Below are positions 46,029 through 52,815 of a stretch of 64,000 bases of DNA, piece by piece (position 1 is the first letter of the stretch; every line of letters starts with the position of its first letter). The DNA comes from Xylanimonas oleitrophica (GTDB lineage: Bacteria; Actinomycetota; Actinomycetes; Actinomycetales; Cellulomonadaceae), in assembly GCF_003244315.1 (NCBI RefSeq), contig NZ_QKWH01000003.1, positions 1-64,000 on the forward strand, written 5' to 3'. The notes under the pieces were generated by a model. The model was not told the origin of the DNA, did no database searches, and worked only from the letters and a program-made list of their open reading frames with translations. Both the position numbers and the translations under genes were made by a program.

Positions 46029-46154
46029 GCCGCCGGACACCCGCACGATACCCGCACAGCGAACGCACCCGTCTGGACCTGACAGCCCCGGGTGAAAAGG
46101 GTAGAAACATCGCGTGCGCCCCGCTGGGCGTGCACGGAGACGAGGGAGCTGCCC

Positions 46155-47891
46155 ATGACCGAAGCCGCCAGTACCGCCCGCTCGCCGCGCGAGCCGTTCG
46201 CAGGGGTGCCGGCGCACGCGCTGGTGCGCGACGTCGTCGCGGCGACCGCGCTCTTCGTGGGTCTCGCCCTGCCGTGGGGCACCGACACCCGGGGGACGGA
46301 CCAGCTCGGGACGGTGCTCGCGACGATCGTGGCGCTGCTGGCCGTGGCTGCTCCGTACGTGCGACGGGCGGGTCTGCTGCCGCCGACGTGGTTCGCCGAC
46401 GAGAGGCGCACGCGGCTGCTCGGGGTGGCCCCCTACGCGCTGGTCGCCGTGGGGCACGTGCTGCTCGACGTGCTGCCCGGCGGGGGAGAGGGGGTCGGTG
46501 CGGGTCTGGGCCTGGGCCTGGCGGGTGCTGCGCTCGCGGCGGAGCCGAGGTGGCGCTGGACGTTGCCCGTGGCCGCGGGGGTCGTGGCGGCCGGTGCGGT
46601 GCTGACGCCGATCCTGGCCGCCGTGTCGGGTGAGGAGCCGGGGGCCCGGCTGGTCGCCATCGTGCTGACGACGGCGCTCGTGCTGGGCATCCTCTGGATG
46701 ACGGTGGGCCGGATGGAGCGGGGCGACGGCGCCGCGGGCGTGCTGCTGCTGGGGCTGGGCGTCGCCGTAGCGCTGTCCGCGGCCCTGGTCTCCGGCTCGG
46801 ACGCCAGCCCGTGGGTGGAGAGCGTCCACGGCACCCGGTTCGGCCTCCTGCTGCTGCCGGTGCTGGCTGCGTGCGCCGTGCCCCGCGTGGTGGGCGAGCC
46901 GGTCGCGGAGGACGCGGAGCCCCAGCGGTGGGCCGCCACGGCGGTGCACGCGCTCTTCCTCGGGGTGGTGCTGGGTGTGTACGTCGCGGCTGTGGCGGTC
47001 GCCGCGATCGTCGGCGGCCGGGTCTCGGTGGAGCTGGTGCTGCGGATCGTGTTCGGCCTGCTGATCGCGGTGGTCGCGTACTTCGCCCACCGGGCGCTGT
47101 CCCGCGACCTGGCCTCCGGGCACGCGACGGCGGTGGGGGCCGCCGTCGTGATGGTGGTGCTGGGCACGGTCATCGTGATCGCCCGCGCCGGGGTCACCAC
47201 GCGCACCACCACGCAGGACCTGCTGCTGACCTTCGGGGTGCCGGCGATCGTGCTGGCGGTGCTGCTCGTGCCGCGCTCGCTGCACGAGCTGCGCAGCCGT
47301 GCGGTGGCCGCCCCTGCCCCGGCCGGGGCTGCGTGGACCGGCACCGCGGGCGTCGTCGCGCAGCCCGGGTCCGGGCCGACGGCGGTGTCGCCCGCGGCGG
47401 GCGTCGCCCAGCAGGTGCCGGGGCAGGCGGCCGCGGCGGGCTCGGCGGACCCGGCTCCCTGGGACGCCACGGCCGGGCGGCCGGACCCGGGCCCGCAGGA
47501 GCGCACGCAGGTGTTCGGGCGGCCGCTGGTGGGTCCGGTGGCGGAGGCGGTCGCTGAGCCGGCGCCCGTCGCCGCGCCCGAGGCGGAGACCTCTGTGCGG
47601 GCCGCGGAGCCGGCGTCGGCCTCGACGTCGGTGCTCTCGCCGCTGACGGGTGCGCCCGTCTCCTCGACGCAGGTCATGCCGCCGGTGGTGGACGTGGCGG
47701 GCTCCGGGTGGACCGCGGAGCAGGCGCTGGACCCCGCCACGCCGCTCGCCGACCTGGCGCGGATCGTGCAGGAGGCCCCGCACCTGCGGCCGCAGGTCGC
47801 CGCCAACCCGTCGACCTACCCGGCGCTCCTGGACTGGCTGGGTGCGCTCGGCGACCCTGCGGTGGACGCGGCGCTGCGGACGCGGCGCTGA
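46155..47891 (+). CDS. Polytopic membrane protein with C-terminal leucine-rich-variant domain
   Basis: A 578-residue protein with about twelve hydrophobic helices (about 22-385), a disordered alanine/proline-rich linker (about 390-510) and a C-terminal helical domain with the variant leucine-rich-repeat-like pattern LDPATPLADLARIVQEAPHL (about 522-541) and QVAANPSTYPALLDWLGALG. This C-terminal module occurs in many actinobacterial proteins as a probable protein-binding domain. The function is unknown. GGGAGCTGCCC precedes ATG 46155. A strong terminator follows. Confidence 0.75.
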   Translation: MTEAASTARSPREPFAGVPAHALVRDVVAATALFVGLALPWGTDTRGTDQLGTVLATIVALLAVAAPYVRRAGLLPPTWFADERRTRLLGVAPYALVAVGHVLLDVLPGGGEGVGAGLGLGLAGAALAAEPRWRWTLPVAAGVVAAGAVLTPILAAVSGEEPGARLVAIVLTTALVLGILWMTVGRMERGDGAAGVLLLGLGVAVALSAALVSGSDASPWVESVHGTRFGLLLLPVLAACAVPRVVGEPVAEDAEPQRWAATAVHALFLGVVLGVYVAAVAVAAIVGGRVSVELVLRIVFGLLIAVVAYFAHRALSRDLASGHATAVGAAVVMVVLGTVIVIARAGVTTRTTTQDLLLTFGVPAIVLAVLLVPRSLHELRSRAVAAPAPAGAAWTGTAGVVAQPGSGPTAVSPAAGVAQQVPGQAAAAGSADPAPWDATAGRPDPGPQERTQVFGRPLVGPVAEAVAEPAPVAAPEAETSVRAAEPASASTSVLSPLTGAPVSSTQVMPPVVDVAGSGWTAEQALDPATPLADLARIVQEAPHLRPQVAANPSTYPALLDWLGALGDPAVDAALRTRR

Positions 47892-48012: not shown

Positions 48013-49899
<1,887 letters not shown>

Positions 49900-49914
49900 C
49901 GCTCCTCCCGCTCG

Positions 49915-49951
49915 CACCGGTGCCCGCACCCTGAGGGTGGGGGCACCGGTG
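49915..49951. terminator. Terminator after leuA
   Basis: A stem of about 17 bp with one mismatch (arms starting CACCGGTGCCC and ending GGGCACCGGTG) closed by TGA, 16 bases after the leuA stop codon. Confidence 0.85.
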
Positions 49952-49970
49952 TCTGCCGACACTGCGGGGC

Positions 49971-50001
49971 TTGACCTTCGAGCGGCTCGAACCGGCAGGG
50001 T
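49971..50001 (+). promoter_or_regulatory. MerR-type promoter/operator for the MerR-clamp fusion gene
   Basis: TTGACC (-35, 49971-49976) and CAGGGT (-10, 49996-50001) are separated by 19 bases, and the spacer contains the perfect palindrome TTCGAGCGGCTCGAA (49977-49991). An overlong spacer with a dyad between -35 and -10 is the classical MerR-regulated promoter. The -10 ends seven bases before the GTG start, so the mRNA is probably leaderless and autoregulated. Confidence 0.75.
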
Positions 50002-50008
50002 GTGCGCT

Positions 50009-51064
50009 GTGGACGAACCTCTGCTGACCATCGGTGCATTCGCCAGTGCTGCCGGGCTGCCGGCCAGCGCCCTGCGGTACTACGACGAGGTAGGGCTCCT
50101 GCCGCCTTCCGACGTCGACGCAGGCACGGGGTACCGCTACTACACGCCCGCCCAGGTTCACCACGCCCGCGCCGTGGCGGTGATGCGGGAGGCGGACGTT
50201 CCGCTGGAGGCGATGCGGACGGTCCTGCGGGGTGACCCGCAGACCGCCCGCGCGGTGCTCGGCGCCGTGGTGGAGCGCTACACGGAGCACGCCGAGCGCG
50301 TGCGCCGCGCGGCTGTCGCGCTGACCGCGGTGCCCGGACCGGTGTCCGCCACCGTCCGGGTGGACGGGACCGCGCTCGCGGCCGCGCTGCGGCAGGTGCT
50401 CCCCGCGGTCGCTCCGGAGCCCGGGCCCCTGCACGGCGTGCTGGTCGACGTCGTCGACGGAGTGGCAGACGTCGTCGCCACCGACAGGTACTGGATGCTG
50501 GTCCGCTCCCTGCGCGGGGTCGGCACCGGCGCAGGTCGCACAGTCCTCACACCTGAGCGGGTCCGGACGGTGGCGGCCCTGCTGGACCTGCGCGAGGACC
50601 CGGAGGTCCAGGTGGGCTGCGAGGGCATCACTGTGGGGGACCGTCTCGTCGCAGGGCTCGGTGACGAGTACCCGGACCACCGCGCCGTCGTCACCGGACA
50701 GGGCAAGCCTGCCACTCGGGTGCTGGCCGCCCGGGACAGGCTCCTGGAGGTGCTCGCCGCCAGTACGGAGGAGGACCTGACGCTGCGGGTGGATGGCAGC
50801 GGGATCACTGTCTCGCCCGGGCGGCCGGGTGCTCGGGCCCCGGGCAGCATGCTGCACGCCACGGTCCGCGGCGCTGCGCACGTCGCAGCGGTGGAGGTGT
50901 GGTTCGGCACCTCCCTGCTGCGACGCGCGGTGGCCTCTACCGTTGGCTCCGACGTCGTCCTCGAGGTGGGGGAACCGGGGCGCGCCCTCGTGCTCCGGCC
51001 GGCTGCGCAGGACGGGGGCAGCGTGCTCGTCATGCCGCGTGCCCTCCGCGAGGGCCAGGAGTGA
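50009..51064 (+). CDS. MerR-family regulator fused to a sliding-clamp-like domain
   Basis: A 351-residue protein. Residues 1-75 form a MerR winged helix (LTIGAFASAAGLPASALRYY, EVGLLPPS, GYRYYTPAQ), and 76-105 the dimerisation helix. Residues 110-351 resemble the DNA polymerase III beta clamp (DnaN): VVATDRYWMLVRS corresponds to the clamp ATDRYRLAVRE motif, and the end SVLVMPRAL to the clamp YLLMPVRL. The domain probably serves as a sensor or dimer scaffold rather than a replication clamp. The start GTG 50009 directly follows a MerR-type promoter. It is coupled to the MFS gene (GTGA overlap at 51061), a likely efflux target. Confidence 0.8.
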   Translation: MDEPLLTIGAFASAAGLPASALRYYDEVGLLPPSDVDAGTGYRYYTPAQVHHARAVAVMREADVPLEAMRTVLRGDPQTARAVLGAVVERYTEHAERVRRAAVALTAVPGPVSATVRVDGTALAAALRQVLPAVAPEPGPLHGVLVDVVDGVADVVATDRYWMLVRSLRGVGTGAGRTVLTPERVRTVAALLDLREDPEVQVGCEGITVGDRLVAGLGDEYPDHRAVVTGQGKPATRVLAARDRLLEVLAASTEEDLTLRVDGSGITVSPGRPGARAPGSMLHATVRGAAHVAAVEVWFGTSLLRRAVASTVGSDVVLEVGEPGRALVLRPAAQDGGSVLVMPRALREGQE

Positions 51065-52260: not shown

Positions 52261-52344
52261 GACGGCGCGCCTGCGGTGCCGGAGGGCCGCCACGGGGCTG
52301 CCGGTGGTCGACCGCGCTCAGAGCGTCTGGCAGGATCACGCGGC

Positions 52345-52815
52345 GTGAACACCAGGAACCGCCTGCTCGCCCTCGGGGCCGGGATCGCCGGGTTCGGGGC
52401 GGCGGCGGGTGCCCCGTCCGGGGCCGTGATGCCCGCCGTGGGGGGCATCGCGCTCGCGGTGCTGGGCGCTGCTCTCGAGCACCGGGCCCCTGGGGCCAGG
52501 ACGGAGCGCCCGAGCAAGGCTCCGGCCGAGGAGGGCGGTCCTGCCCCGGGCAGCCAGGGCCCCGCAGCCGACGGCGCCTCGCCGCCGGTGAGCGCAGGCG
52601 GTCCCGCACCGGGACCGGACCGGCGGACGCTCACGCACGACGTGCTGCTCCGGGTGGTGCGCTACGGCGTGCTGCTGGGCCTGTACGTGTGGATGCGCGA
52701 GACTCCGGGGGCGGGCACCGTCGCGGCCCTCGCGTGGGCGTTCGGTGCCGTCGGCGTCGTGGGGGCGGCCTATGTGGTGCTGGACGTGACGTTCGCGCGG
52801 CGGGCCCCGGCCTGA
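52345..52815 (+). CDS. Hypothetical membrane protein
   Basis: A 156-residue protein: hydrophobic segment at 10-45, a disordered proline- and glycine-rich linker (50-95), then two predicted helices (about 103-120 and 125-148). No family is recognised. GTG 52345 is eight bases after CAGGAT (52331-52336). A terminator-like hairpin follows. The downstream recO and uppS genes are separate core genes. Confidence 0.65.
   Translation: MNTRNRLLALGAGIAGFGAAAGAPSGAVMPAVGGIALAVLGAALEHRAPGARTERPSKAPAEEGGPAPGSQGPAADGASPPVSAGGPAPGPDRRTLTHDVLLRVVRYGVLLGLYVWMRETPGAGTVAALAWAFGAVGVVGAAYVVLDVTFARRAPA

Follow-up and report, generated by a model that had tools for sequence, protein, structure and literature searches.

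Regulators of the MerR type act at promoters with an over-long spacer and activate them by untwisting. BmrR, a MerR-type multidrug regulator, carries a GyrI-like sensor domain. In the beta-lactam sensors BlaR1 and MecR1, the sensor domain is homologous to drug-binding proteins, and signalling proceeds through a membrane-bound protease. The regulator described here shares with BlaR1 and MecR1 the idea of a drug-target-like sensor, whereas the domains themselves are unrelated and protease signalling is theirs alone. It is closer to TipA/SkgA, Mta and BmrR, with which it has in common a MerR helix-turn-helix, a helix and a C-terminal ligand module, autoregulation, and an output in efflux or drug binding (for the TipA class, see PMC7762955), and from which it differs in the sensor: TipAS or GyrI-like in those proteins, a pair of beta-clamp domains II and III here.

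The domain II/III fold and the pocket are common to the regulator and the replication clamp DnaN (TIGR00663, PF02767, PF02768), whereas the regulator is without domain I, the dimer interface and the basic channel residues, and is fused to a MerR DNA-binding domain. The pocket between clamp domains II and III accommodates clamp partners, and it is the binding site of the cyclic peptide antibiotics griselimycin and mycoplanecin (PMC5694481, PMC10817943). The self-resistance clamps GriR and MypR (PMC10817943) resemble the regulator family as extra clamp-like proteins tied to clamp antibiotics, a tie that we infer for the regulators; GriR and MypR are second full-length copies of the target, whereas the family members are transcription factors with a partial clamp. 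No report of a MerR-DnaN fusion was found in open-access papers; a report elsewhere or a database note could exist.

Locus and domain architecture

The window is a 64,000-nt stretch of Xylanimonas oleitrophica DNA (NZ_QKWH01000003.1, positions 1-64,000, forward strand), with the following features around the regulator gene.

48037-49899: leuA, upstream of the hairpin and the regulator
49914-49952, + strand: hairpin in the gap between leuA and the regulator (RNA fold of 49896-49965, -41.4 kcal/mol, z -4.6)
49971-50001, + strand: MerR-type promoter/operator, with -35, dyad and -10 and a 19-bp spacer
50009-51064, + strand: MerR-clamp regulator, 351 aa, GTG start
50027-50230, + strand: MerR winged helix-turn-helix, residues 7-74 (Pfam MerR_1, 5.9e-15)
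50237-50326, + strand: long helix, residues 77-106 (AlphaFold2 secondary structure), at the position of the MerR dimerisation helix
50348-50698, + strand: clamp domain II-like, residues 114-230, carrying half of the ligand pocket
50714-51046, + strand: clamp domain III-like, residues 236-346, carrying the remaining pocket, without the dimer-interface residues
51061-52260, + strand: MFS exporter, 399 aa (MFS_1, 4.1e-20)

The hairpin is likely the terminator of leuA, so that the regulator and the exporter probably belong to a separate transcription unit. The GTG start of the exporter overlaps the stop codon of the regulator (GTGA), and the two are therefore probably coupled in translation; judging from this arrangement, they look like a small two-gene transcription unit. 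The exporter also matches TIGR00900 (4.6e-27, under the model cut-off), and recO (by Pfam) and uppS (read from the sequence) lie further downstream. A scan of the regulator locus for sigma-70-type promoters and terminators found nothing, because the MerR spacer and a hairpin lacking a T-run fall outside the consensus rules. After the exporter, a 179-aa ORF with hydrophobic stretches (52276-52815), for which Pfam gave no match, is possibly a third gene of the unit. Upstream, a protein with DUF7937 and a C-terminal LRV_2 domain (46092-47891) is unrelated to the regulator.

The first-pass annotation described the protein as a MerR DNA-binding domain fused to a clamp-like domain, quoting the motif VVATDRYWMLVRS and a SVLVMPRAL end; both are present, at residues 155 and 338, respectively. 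Against Pfam, the window regulator matched MerR models only and no clamp model; against the PDB, its C-terminal part matched zero chains, and pairwise BLAST against the DnaN of its own genome gave E = 0.06. For the window protein alone, without a clamp match in Pfam or the PDB, the proposed clamp match is thus weak. Searching genomes at the family level and scanning one collection yielded 24 full-length relatives, and PF02767 (DNA_pol3_beta_2) is matched by 23 of the 25 members (the window protein and its relatives); one relative matches the DnaN equivalog TIGR00663 over residues 126-361 (3.4e-29, under the curated cut-off). The profile of the C-terminal part of the family, with the MerR domain removed, matched 55 distinct PDB sequences, all of them beta clamps (best E = 1.2e-34), and aligns to clamp residues ~130-374, i.e. 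up to the clamp C-terminus. An AlphaFold2 model built on the family alignment (pLDDT 87) matches the E. coli clamp, and among the 50 Foldseek matches listed, nearly all are titled beta clamps and the rest are clamp-containing complexes (best 3.8e-14). The family-profile and fold tests rule out chance resemblance and bear out the annotated fusion: a non-clamp fold for residues 110-351, which would have spoken against it, was not what the prediction returned.

The C-terminus of the regulator is made up of clamp domains II and III, with the MerR domain and the helix replacing clamp domain I; by analogy with the MerR family, helix 77-106 would be the dimerisation helix. The domain II/III fold of the DnaN class is present, and its three-domain architecture and ring-forming interface are absent. 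A PF02767 scan of the window genome gave a single match, the true DnaN, encoded elsewhere, and with this sole match a second full-length DnaN of the GriR kind was discarded for this genome.

MerR-clamp fusions form a family in actinobacteria, in which a regulator of a known kind carries a new type of sensor. The full-length fusion is present across many families of one class of Actinomycetota, and in a phylum-wide sample full-length matches came from that class only, the others covering either the clamp part or the MerR part but not both. Family members were collected by relatedness, so that counts across them are not independent. In the regulator tree, the window protein sits on a long branch and clusters (support 99/93) with three other members, in which an MFS gene likewise lies downstream.

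Retention of the pocket and loss of the ring interface

Conservation was mapped across 50 family members and 11 DnaN proteins in E. coli numbering, with the list of clamp pocket residues taken from PMC11139829. L155, P242, M362 and P363 are nearly invariant across the family, the adjoining D173 is invariant, and T172 is mostly retained, with Cys in some members. The conservation score in the family is 0.62 for pocket columns vs. 0.35 elsewhere; among the 70 columns most conserved in DnaN, the pocket scores 0.70 vs. 0.38 for the others, and with the members reduced to a non-redundant 19 and the controls chosen to match in DnaN conservation, 0.61 vs. 0.40 (P = 5e-5, the lowest value that 20,000 draws allow). 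Against the DnaN consensus, identity reaches 64% in the pocket vs. 26% in the rest of the module. The dimer-interface residues of E. coli domain III (I272, L273, E298 and E304) are deleted or substituted in the family, and basic channel positions, e.g. K198, are mostly absent.

A ring-forming or oligomerisation role had also been proposed for the clamp-like part; a ring or oligomer scaffold is rejected, given the absence of clamp domain I and the loss of the interface residues. The low identity to DnaN outside the pocket would suit a decayed or purely structural remnant that does no more than stabilise the MerR dimer or contact DnaN, with the inducer acting elsewhere. We regard this as very improbable, because neutral decay would produce the reverse of what is seen, a pocket selectively conserved where interface and channel residues have gone. 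Pocket residues may in part be held by the interdomain core.

In the window protein, the domain II half of the pocket comprises L141, T158, D159, R160, Y161, W162, M163, P222 and V227, and the domain III half comprises L340, M342 and P343. Identity of this pocket to the DnaN consensus is 47%, i.e. about half of the positions are kept; W162, M163, G300, R344 and A345 stand at E. coli R176, L177, N320, M364 and R365, and W162 and M163 are common to the Flexivirga member. The window protein is a drifted member of the family, and its ligand may differ. The departures from DnaN at W162 and M163 in the window and Flexivirga pockets, as well as the MFS exporter as output, would be compatible with reuse of the clamp fold as a general hydrophobic-drug pocket, like the GyrI-like domain in BmrR, with various lipophilic compounds as inducers. 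Such a general sensor seems unlikely, though not negligibly so: the pockets of most members are highly identical to that of DnaN, and a general drug sensor would not predict the operator that faces dnaN in one genus.

Operators at regulator, exporter and dnaN genes

In the window, the -35 element TTGACC (49971-49976) is followed by a perfect dyad, TTCGAG-CGG-CTCGAA (49977-49991), and the -10 element CAGGGT (49996-50001), with a spacer of 19 bp. The start codon of the regulator lies 7 nt past the -10, so that the mRNA is probably leaderless. In a leave-one-out PWM analysis, the window site scores 28.9 bits and is the sole match above 14 bits in the 64 kb; the exact pattern has one match in the whole window genome. 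Upstream of almost all regulator genes stand TTGACC, the dyad and a -10 with a spacer of exactly 19 bp, and the start codon lies a few bases downstream (operator set of 52 collected sites, with the same layout in most relatives), and the PWM finds almost no further sites within 16-kb loci. The N-terminal helix-turn-helix and the dyad within a 19-bp spacer are both MerR-type features, and from the geometry of MerR promoters, the regulator would be expected to activate rather than repress.

An adjacent MFS gene is found in 24 of the 59 loci (15 upstream, 8 downstream and 1 convergent), a small TPR protein is encoded downstream in 13, and 22 have neither. Where the MFS gene is upstream or convergent and hence not co-transcribed, a second operator copy usually precedes it, mostly 37 nt from the ORF start, which makes the link between regulator and exporter independent of adjacency; in two loci, the operator is located between the regulator and the MFS gene. 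On the regulator tree, the MFS label requires 4 changes vs. 19 with shuffled labels, and at least 3 of the changes are forced by well-supported branches: the pairing of regulator and MFS either arose repeatedly or was maintained while the locus was rearranged. Bit scores of the partner MFS proteins against the window MFS are 80-198, compared to 40 for the best paralogue in its own genome, values that come from two different programs and are comparable only roughly. The coupling of the regulator to an efflux gene, also part of the first-pass annotation, is upheld by the MFS_1 match, the overlapping start and the adjacency in relatives. At the level of sequence, control of the exporter is indicated by the coupled MFS gene and by operator copies directly before the MFS genes of relatives. 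In one locus, the TPR protein appears to be fused to the regulator, and small TPR-like partners were noted in seven loci, this one included.

The trans-regulon was surveyed in a sample of 151 genomes from one family, in which the regulator genes lack an exporter next to them. The operator pattern was present in 58 of the 70 genomes with the regulator, a count that in part reflects the regulator's own promoter, and in 0 of the 81 without it (Fisher 3e-30, kinship ignored); a control pattern was not found in the same 151-genome survey. Further operator sites in this family precede unlinked MFS exporters, small TPR proteins and YunG proteins, and the TPR proteins resemble the TPR partner of the other clade. 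TPR-like members of the predicted regulon were noted at 13 loci, and YunG-like genes with an operator at five, three of which match PF24585 while the other two look alike.

In one genus of this survey, an operator faces dnaN in 13 of the 16 sampled genomes, at a near-constant distance of ~690 nt, on the dnaA-side border of the origin region, which is rich in DnaA boxes. In the alignment of this genus, the operator is 90% conserved vs. 26% in the sequence just upstream. The regulator thus apparently controls dnaN in this genus, as far as site placement can indicate; bordering the origin region and 690 nt away from dnaN, the operator might act on the origin instead. In the aligned copies, an RTG codon lies ~8 nt past the -10, as in the leaderless genes of the regulon, though dnaN starts far downstream; a leader ORF or an effect on origin firing may be involved. 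In the window genome, no operator was found before dnaN, only the operon's own site.

The operator facing dnaN at the origin and a pocket kept DnaN-like would both be in line with a regulator whose ligands are clamp-binding proteins or peptides of the cell itself (polymerase in free form, repair proteins, further clamp partners) and which, under replication stress, tunes the supply of clamp. We consider this rather improbable, given that the commonest known partner gene encodes a drug-type exporter, recurring in several lineages, and that the window genome is without a dnaN site.

Proposed mechanism and significance

The explanation that we favour, and judge somewhat more probable than otherwise, is a target-mimic one-component activator that senses ligands of the clamp pocket, probably DnaN-targeting antibiotics, and activates efflux. 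A MerR dimer would occupy the 19-bp-spaced promoter at 49971-50001; its C-terminal two-domain DnaN remnant is unable to form a ring but keeps the hydrophobic domain II/III pocket. A ligand in the pocket would switch the dimer to an activating form, which would untwist the over-long spacer, as other MerR regulators do, and thereby induce expression of the regulator and of the MFS exporter coupled to it. In relatives, the genes switched on would include those for unlinked exporters and for TPR and YunG proteins; in one genus, dnaN would apparently be among them.

Computation establishes the fold, the absence of domain I and of the interface, the conserved pocket, the operator and the predicted regulon; from these we infer binding of the inducer in the pocket, a clamp-targeting antibiotic as that inducer, and activation by untwisting. 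A MerR regulator with a clamp pocket, and with a predicted regulon consisting of an exporter and, in places, the clamp, is what would be expected of a sensor of clamp drugs: export the drug and make more of the target. Resistance to griselimycin arises through amplification of the dnaN/ori region (PMC5694481), and producers of griselimycin and mycoplanecin have a second dnaN (PMC10817943); export plus an extra clamp therefore fits a clamp-targeting drug. The suggestion in the first-pass annotation that the ligand may be a clamp-binding drug gains indirect support from pocket conservation and from the operator shared by exporters and the site before dnaN, and stays a hypothesis. The fuller proposal, that the half-clamp is an antibiotic-target decoy sensing DnaN-binding natural products and controlling efflux and, in one genus, dnaN via a drug-responsive origin promoter, within an undescribed family of transcription factors, is put forward tentatively, as conceivable but short of probable.

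If true, actinobacteria would have sensors devoted to antibiotics that act on the replication clamp, which is a target of tuberculosis drug leads, and these would be ready-made biosensors for the discovery of clamp-targeting compounds. The same regulators would provide a route to tolerance through inducible efflux and target overproduction. The family would then clearly exemplify the evolution of a drug sensor from the target of that same drug, and in one genus a dnaN regulator bearing a clamp-like domain would act at the replication origin.
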